From positions 6,165,465 to 6,229,464 of the forward strand of contig NZ_CP104694.1 of the NCBI RefSeq assembly GCF_025398735.1: DNA of 64,000 nucleotides, written 5' to 3'. Source of the stretch: Tahibacter amnicola. GTDB taxonomy: Bacteria > Pseudomonadota > Gammaproteobacteria > Xanthomonadales > Rhodanobacteraceae. Numbering within the stretch: position 1 is the stretch's first letter; every line of letters starts with the position of its first letter. The notes beneath the pieces were generated by a model. The model was given only the letters and a program-made list of their open reading frames with translations. It did not search any database and was not told the origin of the DNA. Made by a program: the position numbers and the translations under genes. This document shows positions 10,137-64,000 of the stretch, piece by piece.

Positions 10137-12994
10137 CGCACGGCCAGGCCAACGGAATGGGCCACTTCGAGGACGACCGTCGTGGCCTCGTCGAGCGCGT
10201 CGTCGCGCGGCGCGATGCGGGGGCGCGCGTCCAGCGTGCAGGTCAATGCCCGCTCAAGCAGGCAGGCGTGAGCCGCCAGCAGCTGCGTGGCCTGCGGTTC
10301 GTCGAACAGTCCCAGCTTCGCCGCCGCGCGGATCAGCCCGCCGCTGTCACTGCTGGCGAGCAGTTCGCGGTGATCCGCCGCATGTGCCAGCACCAGTGCC
10401 TGTAGCAGGAATTCGATATCCAGCAGCGCGCCGGCCCCTTGCTTGAGGTCCAGCTCCACCGCGTTGGACCGGTCGCGTTCGGCACGCCAGCGCGCACGCA
10501 TATCGGCGACATGGCGCAGCACTTCGGAAGGTTGCCGCGGCTGCCCGAGCACCGCGCTGCGCGCCTGGTCAAAACGAAGCGCCAGCTGCGGGTCGCCGGC
10601 GAGGAAGCGCGACCGCACCAGGGCCTGGTGTTCCCAGGTCCAGGCCCGCTCGCGCTGGTAGTCGGCAAATCCCTGCACGCTGGTCACCAGCAGGCCCTTG
10701 CCACCATCCGGACGCAGGCGCACATCCACTTCATACAGGCGGCCGGCACGCGTGAGCGTGGTCAACAGGTGCACCACGCGCTGCGCGATACGCGCGAAGT
10801 AGCGCTGGCCATCCAGCGGACGCGGGCCGTCGCTTTCGGCCTGGCCCAGGCTTTCGTCATAGAGAAAAACGAGATCCAGGTCGGAAGCGAATCCCAGCTC
10901 GGCCGCCCCGAGCGACCCGTAGCCGACGATGCCCAGCCCGCTGCCATCGGTGGCATGGCCGGGCATCCGGCCATGCTGGCGGATTGCATCGCGCTCGGCC
11001 TGGGCCAGTACGGCTGCAATGATCGATTCGGCCAGGACGGCCATTCGTCGCGCCGTCTGCACCGCATCCGCACGCCGCGCCAGGAACGCAAGGCCCAGAC
11101 GGAAACCCAGGCTGTGCTTGAGCTCCTGCAGGACCTCGATCTCTGCCTCGGCGTCGGCCTCGTCGAGCGTGGCGACGCGACGGGCGATCTCACCCTCGAT
11201 GGCGCGGCGGTCGACCGGCACCTGCTCCAGACGCGGGTCGAACAGGTCATCCAGCAGCAGCGGATGGGCGATCACGCGCTCTGCCAGCCAGGCGCTGTCG
11301 GCAAACAGCGCGATCAGCCGGCGCCGTGCGCCGGGCTGCTCATCCAGTAGCACCAGGTAGGCGGCGCGACGCACGATCGCGTGCAGCAGGCGCACCAGGC
11401 GTTCCAGGCAGGCTGCAGGTACACGCGTCGCGGCAGCGGCCTGCAGGAGCTGCGGCATCAGGCGATCGAAACGCTCGCGCGAACTGGCGGCCATCACGCG
11501 GACCGACGGTGATCGCGCCAGTCCCACCAGCGCCTCGCGCACCGGCTCGCCGGGAACGAAACCGGCGGCCTCGAGTGCGGCCGTGGTATCGCCGTTCCCG
11601 TCCGCATCGATCGCGCGCCACAGCGTGATCCAGCTGTCCGGCGTGGGCGAATGCGTTTCGGGCGTGAGCGGCGCCAGCAGCTGGCGGAACTCCTCGGCAA
11701 CAATGGCACGCTCGACGGTCAAGGCTCGTCCGAATGCGTCGGCATCGGGAAAGTCCAGCGCGCGGGCAATGCGCCCCACGAGATCCGCATCACCCGGCAG
11801 GGCGTGCGTCTGTTCGTCGCGCAACATCTGCAGCCGGTTCTCCACGCGCCGCAGGAACAGGTACGACTGGCGCAGCTGGGCCGCGCGGGCCCGATCGAAC
11901 AGGCCCAGCTGCTCGCAGGCCGCCAGTGCCGGCAGCAGGCCGCGCACGCGCAGGCTGGGCTCACGGCCACCGCGGATCATCTGCAGCAGCTGCACGATGA
12001 ACTCCACTTCGCGGATACCACCGGGGCCGAGCTTGAGATTGTCGGTCAGGTCTTTGCGCGCCACTTCAGCGTCGATCAGCGCTTTCATCTCGCGCAAACC
12101 GGCGAAAGCGGTGTAGTCGAGATAGCGCCGGTAGACGAACGGCCGCAGCGTCTCGGTCAGGCGCTTGCCGGCCCCCAGGTCACCAGCGACCGGGCGCGCC
12201 TTGATCCACGCGTAGCGCTCCCAGTTGCGGCCTTCGCGCTGGTAGTACTGTTCCATCGCGGCGAACGACAGGGCCACGCGGCCGGAATGGCCGAACGGGC
12301 GCAGGCGCAGGTCCACGCGATAGACGTAGCCGTCCGCGGTCACCTCGGCCAGCAGCTTGACCATCTGCTGTCCGACGCGCGCGAAAAATGTTTCGTTGTC
12401 CACGACACGCGCGCCGTCGGTCTGTCCATTCTCGGCGTAGGCGAGAATCAGGTCGACGTCGGAGGAGAAATTGAGCTCGCCGCCACCGAGCTTGCCCAGG
12501 CCCAGCACGACCAGGCGCTGTGCCTTGCCTGCGCTGTCACGTGGCGAGCCGTGGCGGGCGCCCAGGTGCGCCTCGGCGTAGCGCAGCGCCAGTTCGATAC
12601 AGGTTTCCGCCAGCGTGCTCGATCCAGCGAGCGTATCGGCGACTTCGTCCAGTCCGTTGACGTCGCGCCAGATCAGGCGCAGCGCCTCGCGCTTGCGGAA
12701 GCGGCGCAGCGCGCTCATCTGGCGCGCCTCGTCGCGTTCAGTGGCATCGAGCTGGTAAACCCGCGCATCCGCCGGACGCGGATCGCTCATCAGCATCAAC
12801 GCATCGGGCGCCATCAGCGCCGGATCGCGCGAAAAGCAGTCGTAGGCGAAGTCGCTGGCCAGCAGCACGCGCTGCAGCTGCTCGGCAACGCCGGCATCGT
12901 CATAGAAGGGAACGCCGCATTCGCGGCAGCGCGCCAGCAGATGGCTGTAGCGGGATTCGGTGAGGCCTGCGAAAGGCGCGACGGTCGTGGGCAT
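10133..12994 (-). CDS. glnE: Bifunctional glutamine synthetase adenylyltransferase/adenylyl-removing enzyme
   Basis: GlnE modifies a tyrosine of glutamine synthetase with AMP and removes it again, according to the PII state. The 953-residue product has the two expected nucleotidyltransferase domains: the N-terminal deadenylylase (GKLGGGELNFSSDVDLILAY) and the C-terminal adenylylase (GYGSLGAAELGFASDLDLVF), each with the Asp-x-Asp pair. The ATG at 12994 (MPTTVAPFAGLTESRYSHLL) is chosen; a longer frame from 13072 would run through the upstream hairpin. It is followed by the overlapping glsA. Confidence 0.95.
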   Translation of the reverse strand: MPTTVAPFAGLTESRYSHLLARCRECGVPFYDDAGVAEQLQRVLLASDFAYDCFSRDPALMAPDALMLMSDPRPADARVYQLDATERDEARQMSALRRFRKREALRLIWRDVNGLDEVADTLAGSSTLAETCIELALRYAEAHLGARHGSPRDSAGKAQRLVVLGLGKLGGGELNFSSDVDLILAYAENGQTDGARVVDNETFFARVGQQMVKLLAEVTADGYVYRVDLRLRPFGHSGRVALSFAAMEQYYQREGRNWERYAWIKARPVAGDLGAGKRLTETLRPFVYRRYLDYTAFAGLREMKALIDAEVARKDLTDNLKLGPGGIREVEFIVQLLQMIRGGREPSLRVRGLLPALAACEQLGLFDRARAAQLRQSYLFLRRVENRLQMLRDEQTHALPGDADLVGRIARALDFPDADAFGRALTVERAIVAEEFRQLLAPLTPETHSPTPDSWITLWRAIDADGNGDTTAALEAAGFVPGEPVREALVGLARSPSVRVMAASSRERFDRLMPQLLQAAAATRVPAACLERLVRLLHAIVRRAAYLVLLDEQPGARRRLIALFADSAWLAERVIAHPLLLDDLFDPRLEQVPVDRRAIEGEIARRVATLDEADAEAEIEVLQELKHSLGFRLGLAFLARRADAVQTARRMAVLAESIIAAVLAQAERDAIRQHGRMPGHATDGSGLGIVGYGSLGAAELGFASDLDLVFLYDESLGQAESDGPRPLDGQRYFARIAQRVVHLLTTLTRAGRLYEVDVRLRPDGGKGLLVTSVQGFADYQRERAWTWEHQALVRSRFLAGDPQLALRFDQARSAVLGQPRQPSEVLRHVADMRARWRAERDRSNAVELDLKQGAGALLDIEFLLQALVLAHAADHRELLASSDSGGLIRAAAKLGLFDEPQATQLLAAHACLLERALTCTLDARPRIAPRDDALDEATTVVLEVAHSVGLAVR

Positions 12995-54885: not shown

Positions 54886-57453
54886 ATGCGCGTTCTCCTC
54901 CGCTTGGTCCGCTACGCGCTCTATCTGGCGCTCAGCGGAGTCCTGCTCGGGTGCCTCGCAATAGGCATCGCTTATTGGTTGATTTCCCCACGCCTGCCGT
55001 CGGTCGAAACGTTGCGCGATGTGCGCCTGCAGGTGCCGTTGCGAGTCTACACCTCCGACGACAAGCTGGTAGCTACTTTTGGCGAAACCCGCCGGATACC
55101 GGTTTCCATCGAACAGGTACCCGCCAAGGTCAAGAACGCCTTCCTCGCTGCCGAGGACGCCCGGTTCTACGAGCACCCGGGTTTTGACATGCAGGGCATT
55201 TTCCGTGCGGTGTGGCACCTGGTGCGTACCGGTGGCGACAAGGGCCCGGGCGGCTCAACCATCACGCAGCAGGTCGCGCGCAACTTCTTCCTGAGCCCGG
55301 AACAGACGTATACACGTAAGATTTCGGAATTGTTCCTGGCACTGCGTATTGAAAATGCACTGTCCAAGGACGAGATCCTCGCGCTGTACCTCAACAAGAT
55401 CTTCCTCGGACACCGCGCCTACGGCGTGGCGGCCGCCGCCGAGTTCTACTACGGCAAGACGCTCGACCAGCTCGACCTTGCCGAATGCGCGATGCTGGCC
55501 TCGCTGCCCAAGTTCCCCTCGACCGGCAATCCGCTGTTCAACCGCGACCGTGCGGTACAACGCCGCAACTATGTGCTCGCGCGCATGAGCGAGAACAAAT
55601 TCATCACCGAGAAAGAGATGAAGGAAGCGATGGAGCAGCCTGATCGCTCCTACGCGCACGAGCCCCCGATCGAGGTCGAGGCCCCCTATCTCGCCGAGAT
55701 GGTGCGTGCCGACGCCATGGAACGGCTGGGCAACGACGCCCTGACCGACGGGTATTCCATTCGAACGACCATCGACAGTCGCATGCAGGAGGCCGCCAAC
55801 AAGGCACTGCGCGACTCGCTGATCGACTACGACCGCCGCCACGGCTACCGCGGCGCGGAAGCGCACGTCGAGCTCAAGCCGGGCGCGAAGCCTGAGGACC
55901 TCAACCGCGAACTGGCCAACTTCCGTCCGATCGCTGGACTGGTTCCCGGGATCGTCTCCGAAGTGAGCAAGGAGCAGGCCCAGGTTTACCTGGCCGACGG
56001 CCAGACGGTCATCCTGGACAAGGCCTCGGTGGAATGGGCACGTCCGTACCAGAGCGAGAACAGCCGGGGTCCGGCACCCAAGACCGTCGACAGCGTCCTC
56101 AAGGCAGGCGACATCGTCCGGGTTGCCCGGAACGATGAGGATAAATGGACTTTGGGACAAATCCCCGCCGCGCAGTCCGCCCTGGTGTCGCTGGACCCGG
56201 ACGACGGCGCGATCCGCGCCCTCGTCGGCGGATTCAGCTTTGGCCGCAGCAAGTTCAACCGCGCCACGCAGAGCGCACGCCAGCCGGGCTCGGGCTTCAA
56301 GCCCTTCCTGTATGCGGCGGCGTTCGAGCACGGCTTCACGCCGGCATCCATTCTCAACGACGCGCCGTTGTCCTTTCCCGATCCCTCTCGGCCGGGCGGC
56401 GTGTGGTCGCCGTCCAATGACGATGACAAATTCGAAGGCCCTATGCGCCTGCGCGAGGCCTTGGTCAAATCGGTCAACCTCATCTCCGTGCGCCTGCTGG
56501 ATGCGATCGGCGTGCGTTACGCGCGCGAGTTCATCACGCGCTTCGGCCTGCCCCTGGAAGCGATGCCCGAAAACCTTTCCATGTCGTTGGGTACGGCTGC
56601 GGTGGCACCGCTGATGATGGCACGCGGCTACGCCGTCTTTGCCAACGGCGGCATGCTGGTCGATCCGTACTTCATCGCCACGATCAAGGACCGCGACGGC
56701 AAGGAGATCTATACCGCGCAGCCGGCCCGCGCGTGTCGCGACTGCCCCGAGCGCCTGCTGGACGACGCCCGCCTCGCGCGCGCGGCAGCGGCCTCCGCGG
56801 CCACGGCAGCTACAGTGCCCTCTGCTACTCCGGGCGATATTGCCGCGGCGGCGACGATCGCTCCTGCCGCCAGCCCCGCCAGCCGCTTCGCTCCGATCGC
56901 CGCGGCCAGCGCCGCCACCACGGCGCCGGCCACGCCAGCCGAACCGGGCAAGCCGCGCCTGGCCCCGCGTACCCTGGACGTACGCACGGCCTACCTGGTG
57001 TCCTCGCTGCTACGCGATGTCGTGCGGCGCGGCACCGGCCATGCGGCGATGGAACTCAAGCGCAACGACCTTGCCGGCAAGACCGGCACCACCAACGAGC
57101 ACCGTGACGCGTGGTTCAACGGCTTCAACGACCGCGTGGTCACCAGCGTGTGGGTCGGCTTCGACGACTTCAGCTCGCTCGGACGCGGCGAGTTCGGCTC
57201 CAAGGCAGCCCTGCCGATCTGGATCAACTACATGCGCGTGGCGCTCGACGGCCTCGCCGAGCGGCCATTCGCCACGCCTCCGGGTATCAGCACGGCGCGC
57301 ATCGATCCGGGCTCAGGCTACCTTGCCTCCAGCGATGACGCCGGCGCCATTCTGGAATATTTCAAGAGTGAAGATATCGACCGCCTGGCGGCGCCGCCGC
57401 CGGAAGACATGCTCGATGAGGAAGGCCACCAGGAGGCCTACGACATTTTCTGA
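54886..57453 (+). CDS. ponA: Penicillin-binding protein 1A, bifunctional peptidoglycan synthase
   Basis: This 855-residue inner-membrane enzyme polymerises and cross-links peptidoglycan in the periplasm. One TM helix (YALYLALSGVLLGCLAIGIA) is followed by a GT51 domain (AEDARFYEHPGFD, GGSTITQQVARNFF), an OB-like insert and a transpeptidase with the triad SGFK (in PGSGFKPFLYAAA), SVN and KTG (GKTGTTNEHRDAW). An Ala/Thr/Pro-rich stretch of about 65 residues (56770-56950) sits just before the KTG part. The ATG at 54886 is used; a TTG 6 bp upstream adds only two residues. It is divergent from pilM and overlaps the next gene. Confidence 0.95.
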   Translation: MRVLLRLVRYALYLALSGVLLGCLAIGIAYWLISPRLPSVETLRDVRLQVPLRVYTSDDKLVATFGETRRIPVSIEQVPAKVKNAFLAAEDARFYEHPGFDMQGIFRAVWHLVRTGGDKGPGGSTITQQVARNFFLSPEQTYTRKISELFLALRIENALSKDEILALYLNKIFLGHRAYGVAAAAEFYYGKTLDQLDLAECAMLASLPKFPSTGNPLFNRDRAVQRRNYVLARMSENKFITEKEMKEAMEQPDRSYAHEPPIEVEAPYLAEMVRADAMERLGNDALTDGYSIRTTIDSRMQEAANKALRDSLIDYDRRHGYRGAEAHVELKPGAKPEDLNRELANFRPIAGLVPGIVSEVSKEQAQVYLADGQTVILDKASVEWARPYQSENSRGPAPKTVDSVLKAGDIVRVARNDEDKWTLGQIPAAQSALVSLDPDDGAIRALVGGFSFGRSKFNRATQSARQPGSGFKPFLYAAAFEHGFTPASILNDAPLSFPDPSRPGGVWSPSNDDDKFEGPMRLREALVKSVNLISVRLLDAIGVRYAREFITRFGLPLEAMPENLSMSLGTAAVAPLMMARGYAVFANGGMLVDPYFIATIKDRDGKEIYTAQPARACRDCPERLLDDARLARAAAASAATAATVPSATPGDIAAAATIAPAASPASRFAPIAAASAATTAPATPAEPGKPRLAPRTLDVRTAYLVSSLLRDVVRRGTGHAAMELKRNDLAGKTGTTNEHRDAWFNGFNDRVVTSVWVGFDDFSSLGRGEFGSKAALPIWINYMRVALDGLAERPFATPPGISTARIDPGSGYLASSDDAGAILEYFKSEDIDRLAAPPPEDMLDEEGHQEAYDIF

Positions 57454-58097
57454 TGGGTGAACACCGACCCCACTCGCGCGGACGCGCCAACGTGCGCGCC
57501 GATGACAACCGACGCCGCATCGCCGTGGAGGCGGCGCGGCTGATCAGTGAACTTGGCCTGCGTGACTATCACCAGGCCAAACTGCGTGCGGCCGAGCGCC
57601 TGGGTATCCATGACGAGCGGGCGCTGCCGCGCAATACGGAAATCGAGGACGCGCTACGCGAGTACCAGCGGCTGTTCGGCGGCCAGGCACGGATCGATCA
57701 CCTGGACGCCCTTCGGCGCTGCGCGGTCGAGGCCATGCGGTTCTTCCACACGTTCCAGCCGCGACTGGTGGGTGCGGTGCTGGAGGGCACGGCGGACGAA
57801 CACTCGGCCGTCTGCCTGCACCTCTTCAGCGACGATCCCGACGCGCTGTCCCATTTCCTGATCGACCAGAATATCCCGTTCGAGCAGATCGATCGCGTGC
57901 TGCGCTGGGAGCGGGACGAGCCGGAATCGTTTGCCGCTTACCGATTCCAGGCCGACGATATTCCGGTCGACCTGACTTTGCTGCCGCTGGATGCGCTGCG
58001 CCAGGCACCGCTGGACCGTATCGACGGCAAGCCGATGCGCCGGGCCAACGTCACGGGCGTGCAGCAACTTCTGGGCGAGTCCGCGTCCGATTCCTGA
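57453..58097 (+). CDS. Conserved hypothetical protein coupled to ponA
   Basis: This 214-residue soluble protein has a helical N-terminal half (VEAARLISELGLRDYHQAKL) and a C-terminal half with LHLFSDDPDALSHFLIDQNI and ADDIPVDLTLLPLDALRQAP, which resembles a nucleotidyltransferase-like fold; this is uncertain. Such genes are common in Xanthomonadales next to ponA but have no established function. The ATG shares one base with the ponA stop (TGATG), so translation is coupled. It converges on gltA with a shared hairpin. Confidence 0.75.
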   Translation: MGEHRPHSRGRANVRADDNRRRIAVEAARLISELGLRDYHQAKLRAAERLGIHDERALPRNTEIEDALREYQRLFGGQARIDHLDALRRCAVEAMRFFHTFQPRLVGAVLEGTADEHSAVCLHLFSDDPDALSHFLIDQNIPFEQIDRVLRWERDEPESFAAYRFQADDIPVDLTLLPLDALRQAPLDRIDGKPMRRANVTGVQQLLGESASDS

Positions 58098-58123: not shown

Positions 58124-58149
58124 CGACGCCCGCCGAATGGCGGGCGTCG
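58124..58149. terminator. Bidirectional hairpin between ponA unit and gltA
   Basis: CGACGCCCGCC (58124-58134) pairs perfectly with 58139-58149 across GAAT. GTTTC follows on the plus strand and GTCGTTTCC on the minus strand. It lies 27 bp after one stop and 24 bp before the gltA stop on the other strand. Confidence 0.7.
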
Positions 58150-58172
58150 GTTTCAAGCGCCAGCGACGGTAC

Positions 58173-59465
58173 TCAGCGCTTGTCGACCGGTACGTAATCG
58201 CGGTTGCCCGGGCCGATATAGACCTGGCGCGGACGGCCAATCTTGGCGTCCGGCGTTTCGTTCTGTTCGAGCCAATGGGCGACCCAGCCCGCCGTGCGGC
58301 CAATGGCGAACATTACCGTGAACATCTCCGTCGGGATGCCCAGCGCCTTGTAGATGATGCCCGAGTAGAAGTCGACGTTCGGGTACAGCTTGCGCTCGAC
58401 GAAGTAGGAATCCTTCAGCGCGGCCTGCTCCAGTTCCATGGCCACTTCCAGCAGCGGGTCATTGACGCCCAGCTCGCCCAGCACCTGGTGGCACATCTCG
58501 CGGATGATCGTGGCGCGCGGATCGAAGTTCTTGTAGACGCGGTGACCGAAGCCCATCAGGCGGAAGCCGGAGTTCTTGTCCTTGGCGCGCTCGACCGCCT
58601 TGCCCACGTTTTTCGCGTCGCCAATTTCGGCGAGCATCTTGAGCACGGCCTCGTTCGCACCGCCGTGCGCCGGCCCCCACAGGGCGGCAATGCCGGCGGC
58701 GACGCAGGCATACGGGTTGGCGCCAGTCGAACCGACCAGACGGACGGTCGATGTCGACGCGTTCTGTTCGTGATCGGCGTGGAGGATGAACAGCAGGTCC
58801 AGCGCCTTCGCCGCCACCGGCGACATCTGCAACGGCTCGCTGGGCACCTCGAACATCATGTGCAGGAAGCGCGTGCAATATTCCAGATTGTTGCGCGGAT
58901 AACGGATGGGCCAGCCGATCGAATAGCGATACGCGGCAGCAGCGATCGTCGGCATCTTGGCGATCAGGCGAATCGCCGCCAGCTTGCGCTGGGCCGGATC
59001 GTTGATGTCCAGCGAGTCGTGGTAGAAGGCCGCCAGCGAGCCAACCGCAGCCATCAGCATGGCCATCGGGTGCGCGTCGTAGTGGAAGCCCTGGAAGAAG
59101 TTCTTGAGCGACTCACGCATCATCGTGTGGTGCGTGACTTCGTGCTCGAATTTGCCGAATTCCTGCGCATTAGGCAGTTCGCCGTTGATCAGCAGGTACG
59201 CCACTTCGAGGAAGTTCGACTGCTTGGCCAACTGCTCGATCGGATAGCCGCGATACAGCAGGACGCCCTTGTCACCATCGATGAAGGTCACCGCACTCTT
59301 GGTCGCGGCGGTCGACATGAATCCCGGGTCGTAGGTGAAGTAGCCGGTGTCCTTGTTCAATTTGCCGATGTCGAATGCAGGATCGCCCAAAGTTCCCGAA
59401 ACCACCGGCAGGCTGGTCGAGCGGTTGGACGTGGCATCGGTTAGAACGACGGTCTTGTCGGACAC
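58173..59465 (-). CDS. gltA: Citrate synthase (type II, hexameric)
   Basis: This 430-residue enzyme condenses oxaloacetate and acetyl-CoA. It begins [20 protein letters not shown] from a GTG (59465) with AAGGAG 6 nt upstream. Conserved segments are [32 protein letters not shown] (active-site His), [17 protein letters not shown] and [16 protein letters not shown], with the catalytic Asp in [15 protein letters not shown] long frame to 59558 adds 31 non-homologous residues and is rejected. A terminator (59673-59692) separates it from rpmE2 upstream on the same strand. Confidence 0.97.
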
Positions 59466-59672
59466 GAGTGGCTCCTTGGCGCGGTACGGGCCATTACGGC
59501 GGTTAGTGCGGGTCGAACCGGCGGTCGAAACCACCGTTGGCCGCGATGCGGCGCACAATTATCGCACAAGCGTTTGAATGGGAAAGCGGTAGGCGCACAT
59601 CTCGCCGCACGCACACAGGAAAGGCGCATTTCCCGCCTGTTCGCGGCCGTTTCCGGAAGCCGGAAACACAAA

Positions 59673-60150: not shown

Positions 60151-63100
60151 ATGTTCCAGTGGCTGCAATCTGTTGTCCTGGCCGGTTTTTTTGCCGGCGG
60201 TAGCGTTTCCGCGGCGGAGCCGGCGGATTCCCTCGTCCAGTGGCGCCAGCGCCATGCCGAGATCCGGGTCGCACCGGATCCGGACTTCGCGCCGATCGAC
60301 GCCACCGACGCCAACGGCCAGCACCATGGCCTGGCGGCCGACTACCTGCGCCTGATCAGCGAGCGTTCCGGGCTGAAGTTCCGCATTGTACCCGTCCGGT
60401 CGTGGCCGGAGGCGCTTTCGGCGCTGCGCGAGCGACGCGTCGACATGCTTTCCAGCGCCTTCGTGACGGCCACGCGGGAGGAATTTGCCCTCTTCAGCGT
60501 TCCCTACCTGCGCCTGCCCTGTGCCGCATTTTCGCGCAAGGGCCGCGATATCCGCCTGGAACAGCTCAACGAACTGGCGGTGGGCCTGGCCCAGGAACAC
60601 GTCTGCCAGGAAAACCTCGCGCGGCAGGCCCCTCAGGCCAAGGTGACCTTCTACCCCTCCACCTCAAAGGCGCTGACGGCGCTGCACCAGGGCAAGATCG
60701 ATGTGCTGGTCGGCGACCTGGTGACCGCGCAGGCCGCGGCCAACCGTGCCGGCATCCGCGGCGACCTTGTCGTCGTCGGCCAGATCGGCGAGGACGACCC
60801 GCTGGCATTCGCCGTGCGGCGCGACTGGCCGGAGCTCAAGCAGATTCTCGACCAGGCGCTCGGCCAGGTCAGCGTCGAGGACGAAACGCGGCTGCGCCAG
60901 CGCTGGCTGAAGGACCTCCTGCCCGGGGTGCAGACCGCGGCACCGGCGCCGGCGGCCGAACCGCAGGCCAGCAGCCTGGCCGGCCAGATCCGGGCCGCGA
61001 AACAGGCGCTGGGCGAGGCGACGGCCGCCAACGCCGATGCCCATCGCGCCGCGGTGGGCGAGCTCGATGCCGCACTGGCCGACGATGCCCAGGCCGACGC
61101 GGCCAACGCCGAATGGCAGGCATTGCGTACAGCGGCGGCCAGCGCCGCCGCGGATCTGGCCGCGCTCGAACAAGGCCTCGCGCGCGACAACACCGCGAAC
61201 CTCCTGGCCTGGCGCGCCAGCCTGCCGGAGCGCGCCTCGGTCGAGCAGCTGGAAAGCCTGCTGGCCACCGAACAGGCGCAGCTGGCCGATGCGCGCAGCG
61301 CCGTGACGGCGCTGCAGGGCAGCGTCACCCGCCAGCTGGAACGCCCGGCGCAGATCCGCGACGAAATGAAGTCGGCGCAGGATCTGGCCGAAAAATCCAG
61401 ATCGGCCCCGGAAGCCGCCAAGGACGCCCCCGCCCTCGGTGTCGAGCCGGCGCGTTTGCGGCGCCTTGCCGCCGCGCGGCTGGCCCAGGCACGCATTGCC
61501 AAGCTGGAAGAAGAACTGCGCAGCTATGACCTGCGCGTGCGCCTGGAATCGGCCCGCCTGCGCGAACGGCAGCGCGAGGCTGCGGACCGGCAGAGCAAGG
61601 TGGAGGCGCTGCAGAACCTTATCCTTGACCGCACCAGCGCTATCGCCGCAACGCTCAACGAGCGCCTGCAGCGCGAAGCTGCCGCATTGGCGGACGCCCA
61701 TCCCGTACTGCGCGAACCGGCCCGGCTCAACGCCGCCTACGGTGACGAGCTCGCCCAGGACATCTCGCGACTGGCCGAAATCCGCACGCAGAAGGACGAG
61801 TACGCGCGACTGCGCCGCGATACGGTGCAGGCCCTGGAGAACACCCGCGAACGCGTGAAGTTTGGCGGAGTCAGCGAAGCGGTCGGCCTCATTCTGCTGG
61901 CCGAGCGACGCAAGCTGCAGCCGGTGGCGGTGCTGCGGCGCAAGCTGTCTGCCCTGCAGACTGAACTGGCGCAGACGCGCATCCGGCTGGTCGACCTGCG
62001 CGAGGCCCAGCGGGCGCTGGAAGACCCGACCGCACGCGTCGCCGAAGAACTGCGCCGCGTGCCGCAGGACGGCGAGGCCGATCCCACGCTGCGCCAGGCG
62101 CTCTACCAGCTCTTCGCCACGCGTGCGGAAGTGCTGCCCCAGCTCACCCTTGCGCAAACGCGCCTGGCCGACGCCCAGACCGAAGCCGAGCAGGAGCTGC
62201 GCGACCTCACCCAGTCCACCGCCGACCTGCGCGACATGCTCGACGCCCGGCTGCTGTGGACGCCCAGCCATTCGCCGGTGAACGCTCGCTGGCCACTGGA
62301 AATCGTCAACGGCGCGATCGACACGCTGCATCCGGGACGCTGGTGGGACGCCGCCAAGCTCACGGCCCGACTGCTGTGGACGCGCCCGCTGTCGACGCTT
62401 CTGGGCGTGGCGGTCCTCACTGCCCTCTGGCTGGCGCGTCGCCGCGTGCCAGCGGCACTGGAGGCGATCGCCCAACCGATGCGCCGGATCCGGACAGACC
62501 GCTACCGCCTCACCGGGCGCGCGCTGCTCCTGACGCTGCTGGCCAGCCTGCCGCTGCCGGCGGCGGTGTGGATGCTCTCGCGCCTGCTGCAGCGCGCGGC
62601 CGAAGCGGGCTACCCCTTCAGCGATGCGCTGGGCCTCGCCCTGGGCGAGCTGGTCGCGCCGCTGGCCACGCTCTCGTTCCTGCGCTGGCTCACCGCCGAT
62701 CGTGGCCTGGCAGCCGCGCATTTCCGCTGGGCCCAGGGGCGACGCCATGCACTCGACACCCTGCGCCGCTGGTTGACCGCGGTTTTTGCACCTGTCCACT
62801 TCTTCCTTTCGCTGTATTTCTACTACGGTGAACAGCTGGCCAATGCGGGCCTGGCGCGACTGGTGTTCGCCGGCAGCAGCCTGCTGCTGGCGTGGCTGAT
62901 CTGGCGCTCGTTCACCGACACGGGGCTGTGGGCCCAGCGCGGCAGCCAGAATACGCCACGGCGATTGCAGCAGATCCTGCGCGTGCTGCTGACCGGGTTC
63001 GCGCTCTCGTGTGCCGTACTGGCGCTGGCGGGCTATTTCCTGACGGCGGTCACGCTGGCCCGTCACCTGGTCGGCTCGGGCATCGTGGTGCTGGCGATCG

Positions 63101-64000
63101 GCGTGTTGCAGGGCATGGCCATGCGCTGGCTGTCGCTGGGCGAGCGTCGCCTGGCCCTCAAGCGCATGGAAGAAAAGCGCGGCAGCGAAGAAGCGACGCG
63201 CGACGACGGCGAGCTGGAAACGCGCGCGGAATTCGCCGCAGAAGCCGAGCAGATCACGCTGGCCAGTATCAACCAGCAGACCCGTCGCCTGCTGCGCGCC
63301 CTGACCACCGTAGTGCTGGCCGGCGCGCTGCTCTGGGTCTGGTCGGAGGTGACGCCGGCGCTGGCCTTCCTGGGCAACGTCAACGCCTGGGAAACCACGT
63401 ACGCCGTCGATGGCAAGTCGATCACCATCACCGTCACGCTCCGTTCCCTGCTGTTTGCCGCCGTGGCCTTCATGCTCACCTGGGTCGCCACGCGCAATAT
63501 TCCGGGCCTGCTGGAGATCGGCGTGCTGCGCCGGCTCGACCTCGATGCGCCAACCCGCTACGCCGTCACCGCAGTTTCACGCTATGCCCTTGCCATCGTC
63601 GGCGCATTGTTCGGCCTTTCCCTGCTGGGGCTGCGCTGGGGCCAGCTGCAATGGCTGGCGGCCGGCCTCACCGTCGGCCTGGGTTTCGGGCTGCAGGAGA
63701 TCTTCGCGAACTTCGTCTCGGGCCTGATCGTGCTGTTCGAGCGGCCGATCCGCGTAGGCGATGTCATCACCATCCGCGGCGTCGAAGGCACCGTGATGCG
63801 CATCCGCACACGCGCCACGACCATCGTCGACTGGGACAACAAGGAAGTCGTGATTCCGAACAAGACCTTCATCACCGACCAGCTCATCAACTGGACCCTT
63901 TCGGACAGCGTGACGCGCGTGGTGCTGAAAGTCGGCGTGGCCTACAACAGTGATCCGGATCTCGTGCGTACCCTGCTGCTGGAGATGGCGCGCAACCATC
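60151..64000 (+). CDS. Solute-binding-domain / coiled-coil / MscK-type mechanosensitive channel fusion, 3' end cut by window edge
   Basis: One uninterrupted frame of 1283 codons runs to the edge. It has a signal peptide ([20 protein letters not shown]) and residues about 30-250 form a type-3 extracellular solute-binding domain of the amino-acid binding class ([58 protein letters not shown]). Residues about 265-740 are coiled coil, as in the MscK periplasmic domain. From about 745 there are around ten TM helices and an MscS core ([20 protein letters not shown], then [17 protein letters not shown]). Classical MscK lacks the binding domain. It could make a channel whose opening depends on a periplasmic ligand. 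No other gene is coupled to it. The ATG has a distant GGAG only. Confidence 0.88.

Follow-up and report, generated by a model that had tools for sequence, protein, structure and literature searches.

A Venus flytrap domain fused to an MscK-like channel in Tahibacter amnicola: a candidate ligand-modulated osmotic valve

In a 64,000-nucleotide stretch of the Tahibacter amnicola genome (hereafter the window; contig NZ_CP104694.1, forward strand, positions 6,165,465 to 6,229,464), it was found that a single gene encodes both a Venus flytrap (VFT) domain of the solute-binding type and a mechanosensitive channel of the MscK type. The part of this VFT-MscK fusion gene that lies in the window occupies positions 60151-64000 of the + strand, and the full gene (60151-64272) encodes a protein of 1373 amino acids. 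The reading that we prefer, and which we consider probable, is that the protein is an MscK-like channel bearing at its periplasmic N terminus a receptor-type VFT similar to those of BvgS and RmcA, and that a ligand bound there would bias a periplasmic ring and shift the tension threshold of the channel. The protein may fairly be inferred to be a ligand-modulated valve because its VFT is under purifying selection, the anchor residues of the predicted pocket are kept, and the E. coli MscK is reported to be co-gated by K+ from the periplasm (PMC9653487).

Results

The reading frame of the fusion gene begins with an ATG at 60151 and is unbroken to the end of the window, and the single uninterrupted frame claimed in a preliminary description of this DNA therefore stands. 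The gene was completed from the same contig, which holds the whole genome in one piece of 6.46 Mb, giving 1373 codons and a stop at window-equivalent positions 64270-64272, 272 bases beyond the window.

Matches above the curated Pfam cut-offs were obtained with the full protein for SBP_bac_3 at residues 38-254 (E = 4.7e-21), MscS_porin (PF12795) at residues 289-521 (5.2e-14, 52.9 bits), MscS_TM (PF12794) at residues 747-1080 (1.5e-71, 241.5 bits), MS_channel_2nd (PF00924) at residues 1184-1249 (4.1e-23, 81.7 bits) and MS_channel_3rd (PF21082) at residues 1257-1340 (1e-15, 58.3 bits), and the Pfam score for MS_channel_1st (PF21088, helices 2/3), 19.7 bits, fell short of the 23.1-bit cut-off. 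The presence of a solute-binding fold and an MscS/MscK core in one protein, which had been proposed from the window alone, is confirmed by these matches.

All parts of the protein are given here with their + strand positions in the window. The N terminus resembles a signal peptide (residues 1-22, 60151-60216), assigned by eye from a hydrophobic run up to SAA and from a hydropathy peak at residues 4-22, in agreement with the secretion signal suggested previously. It is followed by the VFT (SBP_bac_3; residues 28-258, 60232-60924), which contains the pocket positions D43, F46, F104, R109 and D189, and by a fast-evolving linker (residues 259-288, 60925-61014). The segment that the preliminary description took for a coiled coil of about 470 residues is actually the MscK-type periplasmic helical domain (residues 289-745, 61015-62385, with MscS_porin at 289-521), as assigned from Pfam and from the helices in an AlphaFold2 model. 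The peripheral membrane helices correspond to the Pfam match to MscS_TM (residues 747-1080, 62389-63390), the pore-lining helix region lies at residues 1165-1195 (63643-63735), and the MscS beta and C-terminal domains (the MS_channel_2nd and MS_channel_3rd matches) run from 63700 to 64000 and continue beyond the window. With a threshold of 1.3 for a membrane-like peak, the hydropathy profile reached a maximum of 1.03 for residues 28-740, after the peak at 4-22, and had 10 peaks from residue 741 on, which is roughly comparable to the 11 transmembrane helices of MscK.

The VFT domain and its relatives

The solute-binding fold is present in residues 30-250 not only by Pfam: the AlphaFold2 model of the VFT had a predicted local distance difference test (pLDDT) value of 90.7, and a Foldseek search with this model returned the RmcA PBP domain first (7EJG, template modeling score (TM) 0.90) and BvgS VFT2 second (3MPK, TM 0.87), with the LAO- and arginine-binding proteins ranking behind these two. 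The best sequence matches in the PDB were to BvgS, RmcA and EvgS. Eleven proteins with unfused VFTs were scanned, and it was found that seven are histidine kinases and two are diguanylate cyclases, and in the other two, both cut frames, CHASE/PAS or a weak Cache match was seen. The putative grouping with receptors as opposed to transporters is based on the nearest solved structures and on these 9 of 11 unfused relatives, which are receptors, the tree described below having been built without a set of transporter proteins. The VFT was probably derived from a sensory receptor module and not from a transporter binding protein; if so, its ligand could be something other than an osmolyte. Cues sensed by receptors with related VFTs are pH, alkali metals and nicotinate. 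The output of the fusion protein is, by Pfam, a channel and not a cytoplasmic kinase or cyclic di-GMP (c-di-GMP) output.

The 14 fused VFTs that we identified group as a single clade in a tree built from 94 VFT domains (support 99/89; 98% of 200 bootstrap trees), with the reservation that the bootstrap had not settled (0.987) and that some rows are long-branched. Left out of this tree were duplicate gene copies, matches shorter than 190 residues or weaker than 1e-9, and the loci L050, L048 (covered by L063), L057 and L078 (partial or with stops). The VFT of G745 is sister to the remaining fused VFTs, and the closest unfused VFTs are those of L065 and L067, both in histidine kinases, through a joining branch that is modestly supported (91/61).

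Some of the unfused receptors have unusual arrangements of their own. In L045, a Pfam scan found an NMT1-like binding domain, a VFT and a GGDEF domain in one protein, so that two different solute-binding folds are carried by one diguanylate cyclase; L046 appears alike from its similar start. L092 (G915) has a receptor frame in which a VFT is followed by CHASE and PAS domains.

The predicted ligand pocket

D43 and R109 are invariant in all 14 fused proteins, F46 is kept in 12 of them, and residue 189 is Asp in 12, including the T. amnicola protein, Glu in one and Asn in one. We take D189 to be the equivalent of LAOBP D161, the acidic residue for the amino group (D161A appears as a PDB title), and D43 and F46 are presumably the equivalents of LAOBP D11 and Y14. 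Residue 104, located five residues before the Arg, is Phe in 12 and Ala in 2 of the fused proteins and not the Ser/Thr of alpha-amino-acid binders. The lobe motifs of amino-acid-binding proteins described previously are thus present in part, the departure being Phe104 where LAOBP has Ser72. A list of pocket positions was drawn from LAOBP, GlnBP and CdgH (as given in PMC5431781), with D189 added; the mean conservation of the five pocket columns was matched by 0.225% of 20,000 random column sets, as calculated on 9 of the 14 fused sequences with five Tahibacter sequences omitted.

At the positions of residues 43, 109 and 189, the RmcA PBP domain carries the same Asp, Arg and Asp as the fused VFT, with Met at the position of Phe104; BvgS VFT2 shares the Phe and the Arg with the fused VFT but has Leu at the position of D43 and Thr at that of D189. 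The SBP_bac_3 domain of RmcA is reported to sense L-arginine (PMC8846402), and BvgS VFT2 is described as closed without a ligand and as binding nicotinate (PMC4352136). Because of the RmcA-like Asp/Arg/Asp set and the reported sensing of L-arginine by RmcA, the predicted ligand of the fused VFT is most likely an alpha-amino acid as a first guess, with another carboxylate as the second.

All 8 of the 8 Tahibacter proteins have two cysteines in the VFT, C124 (60520-60522) and C152 (60604-60606), whereas none of the other 6 fused proteins has a cysteine at either position. The two might be joined in a disulfide, conceivably with a role in redox sensing.

Conservation and selection

Compared with the proteins of seven other Tahibacter genomes, the VFT is 63-69% identical, the periplasmic helices 58-62%, the peripheral membrane part 66-69%, the MscS core 75-82% and the linker 20-34%. 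The ratio of nonsynonymous to synonymous substitutions (dN/dS), obtained by a simple pairwise count for four species pairs, ranged from 0.06 to 0.33 in the VFT, from 0.11 to 0.25 in the MscS core and from 0.28 to 1.13 in the linker, which has 29-30 codons; in two pairs the VFT had a lower value than the core, and in the other two a higher one. Purifying selection acts on the VFT to an extent comparable to that on the channel, and by these dN/dS values the VFT is unlikely to be vestigial.

Where the fusion occurs

The fusion was found in 8 of 8 Tahibacter genomes, including that of T. amnicola (the other seven proteins being 63-67% identical to it), in 5 of 9 genomes from a second family of the order (f12), and, outside the order but within the class, in 1 of 5 genomes of family f145. 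A scripted check placed the VFT and the channel within one open reading frame (ORF) in all 14 genomes, and the 14 proteins can be aligned end to end. SBP_bac_3 and MscS_TM scored above their cut-offs in each of the six fused relatives scanned with Pfam. In even samples, fused genes were present in at least 10 of 398 genomes of the order, at least 3 of 369 of the class and at least 2 of 349 of the phylum (both of these 2 being Tahibacter); these counts are lower bounds, as three to four candidates were scored per genome and the channel was checked for the matches that had been given loci. Two scans of viral contigs found no relative of the fusion, and 2 plasmid records were matched, in the VFT part only. 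The VFT-MscK architecture is rare but stable. One long MscK frame (L114) resembled another N-terminal fusion and was rejected, its extra length being, by eye, upstream frame.

The channel half and its history

The protein matched NF008438 over residues 267-1352 with 642.6 bits, which is under the equivalog cut-off of 991, and we class the channel half as MscK-like but not as an MscK equivalog. The gate of the E. coli MscK is described as W914, V921 and F925, with a hinge at G926 (PMC9653487); the equivalents in the fusion protein, W1168, V1175, F1179 and G1180, are identical in 14 of 14 fused proteins. The genome also encodes one MscL and one shorter MscS-type protein, which brings the candidate valves, with the VFT-MscK fusion, to at least three.

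When 51 MscK cores were placed in a tree by a quick search without bootstrap, the 13 fused cores of the order and 6 VFT-less cores (families f1 and f3), the latter nested among the former, fell into one group with a support of 100 in the SH-aLRT (Shimodaira-Hasegawa-like approximate likelihood ratio test). The nearest VFT-less relative is 48% identical. By the approximately unbiased (AU) test, a clade of all 14 fused cores was rejected (p = 1.6e-48), as was a clade of the 13 fused cores of the order (p = 0.00015), and a position of the G745 core as sister to the group of the order was not rejected (p = 0.328); the groups of 13 and 20 were defined after the tree had been seen. Independent fusions were set aside because the fused VFTs form one clade in the VFT tree. 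One old fusion before the lineages split, followed by at least two losses of the VFT (in f3 and in the f1 members other than Tahibacter), would fit the two trees best, and repeated transfer of the VFT domain between lineages is possible.

Neighboring genes

On the - strand of the window, outside the system, lie the gene for ribosomal protein L31 (59765-60007, start chosen by eye), which is the divergent neighbor of the fusion gene, and that for citrate synthase (58176-59558, longest frame). In T. amnicola the fusion is flanked by the gltA gene and a gene for a nucleoside hydrolase, and by eye the same holds for the Tahibacter loci L051-L055. Inspection of 7 loci by eye found no neighbor common to all of them; the neighbors were scanned for L003 and for one of L059. 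In L059, the fused gene, that of G111, ends at 11289 and is followed by a sodium:alanine symporter gene (11388-12917, +; PF01235, 3.2e-130), which may be a weak hint of an amino-acid theme.

Two further frames were noted in this part of the window. A 214-amino-acid ORF (57453-58097, +), between a penicillin-binding protein gene and that for citrate synthase, had no Pfam match at 1e-5; its C-terminal sequence recurs at the T. aquaticus and T. caeni loci, and it encodes a conserved protein. The 435-amino-acid open frame at 58137-59444 (+), antisense to citrate synthase, is probably a high-G+C shadow ORF.

Discussion

In the structures described for the E. coli MscK, the channel is a heptamer with a periplasmic ring above the membrane that widens from 154 to 178 Å on opening, the resolved periplasmic part being the C-terminal portion, and opening is reported to require periplasmic K+ beside tension (PMC9653487). 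In the fusion protein, the VFT precedes the N-terminal portion of the periplasmic domain. If the fusion protein is likewise a heptamer, seven VFTs would stand around or above the ring of periplasmic helices. Tension would flatten the membrane domain, dilate the ring and open the pore, and a small ligand held between R109 (which would bind a carboxylate), D43 and D189 would close the VFT clamshell. This closure, transmitted through the helical domain, may make dilation of the ring easier or harder and thereby shift the tension threshold.

In a stronger version of this model, which we put forward only tentatively, gating is dual: an amino acid in the VFT and membrane tension would together open or prime the pore. 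The protein would then be a second bacterial VFT-gated channel, independent of GluR0 and the ionotropic glutamate receptors.

Several observations weigh against a ligand-modulated channel. VFT-less MscKs are nested among the fused ones in the core tree, so that the channel can do without a VFT. Of the 6 fused relatives scanned, only 1 had MscS_porin above its Pfam cut-off, and the helical domain that would provide the coupling has therefore diverged. The joint AlphaFold2 model of the VFT and the periplasmic domain was poor (pLDDT 60.7, with a low VFT part). In the pocket, D189 is replaced by Glu or Asn in two divergent members; LAOBP and GlnBP are described as contacting the ligand by a Ser/Thr at the position equivalent to Phe104 (PMC5431781); and this Phe is shared with BvgS VFT2, which is reported to close without a ligand (PMC4352136).

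In an alternative that we consider unlikely, the cue sensed by the VFT is physical or ionic, such as pH, alkali metals or redox, as may be the case for EvgS or the apo-closed BvgS VFT2, and the VFT modulates the channel accordingly. The closed, ligand-free state described for BvgS VFT2 (PMC4352136), the Phe104 in common with it, the K+ dependence reported for the E. coli MscK (PMC9653487) and the retention of C124 and C152 throughout Tahibacter are all consistent with such a cue, but the retention of D43 and R109 in 14 of 14 and of D189 in 12 of 14 fused proteins makes the pocket nearer to that of the ligand-binding RmcA than to that of BvgS VFT2.

It is about equally unlikely, or slightly more so, that the VFT has a structural or docking function without any ligand switch, for example as a spacer of the ring or as a contact to another protein or the cell wall. 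Close relatives do keep the channel without a VFT, and the periplasmic domains of mechanosensitive channels may co-evolve with cell-wall components, according to a review (PMC4005912). However, the pocket columns are more conserved than random VFT columns, which would not be expected of a mere spacer.

We regard as improbable a pathway for scavenging or efflux, in which the VFT would capture a solute for the pore and the protein would not be a regulated valve. Mutations in the Salmonella mscK are reported to be able to ease uptake of quinolinic acid (PMC1890815), and a Na+/alanine symporter gene lies beside one fused relative (L059). Against this, the symporter was recognised in 1 of 7 loci, with the neighbors scanned in two loci only; the VFTs nearest the fused clade belong to signalling receptors; and the open pore of the E. 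coli MscK, given as about 20 Å wide (PMC9653487), would have little need for a loading protein.

An artefact of assembly or a frameshift can be dismissed, since the fused frame lies on the own contigs of 14 genomes; the preliminary description, too, had argued against a stitching error. Neither of the two findings that it named as refuting, a lack of the solute-binding fold or separate genes for the two halves in every relative, was obtained.

The channel we propose, ligand-modulated and MscK-like, has the periplasmic helical domain, MscS_TM and the MscS core in common with E. coli MscK (KefA; 7UW5/7UX1) and MscM (11SM/11SO), whose best matches start at residue 360 of the fusion protein or later, with none in the VFT. 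The co-stimulus described for MscK is K+ and like ions (PMC9653487). With the RmcA (P. aeruginosa) PBP domain and BvgS VFT2 the fusion protein shares the VFT fold and the conserved Arg, whereas their output is a c-di-GMP enzyme or a kinase and that of the fusion protein is a channel pore. In GluR0 and the ionotropic glutamate receptors, a VFT of the same class is likewise coupled to an ion channel, but there a tetrameric P-loop pore splits the VFT, whereas the fusion protein has an MscS-type pore and an intact N-terminal VFT. The bCNG channels also have a ligand-binding domain fused to an MscS pore; theirs is a cytoplasmic C-terminal cyclic nucleotide monophosphate domain, whereas in the fusion protein the VFT is N-terminal and periplasmic and the scaffold is the larger one of MscK. 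The VFT-MscK architecture is very probably listed, without comment, in domain databases. We found no description of it among the matches listed in a search of titles and abstract openings of the open-access literature, outside which lie most subscription papers and bioRxiv preprints. Both halves are of known kinds, and what is apparently new is that they are combined, that the combination seems to have arisen once and that selection has maintained it.

The Tahibacter protein is a natural variant in which a ligand-binding clamshell has been added to the periplasmic domain, the part by which MscK is presumed to tune a pore gated by tension. The fused proteins and their VFT-less relatives offer a ready-made comparison of how a chemical signal might be converted into a tension threshold, and such a comparison would tell whether osmotic valves are chemically addressable. 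If dual gating is true, this would be an osmotic valve that reads the chemistry of the outside water or of the solutes that have just been released.

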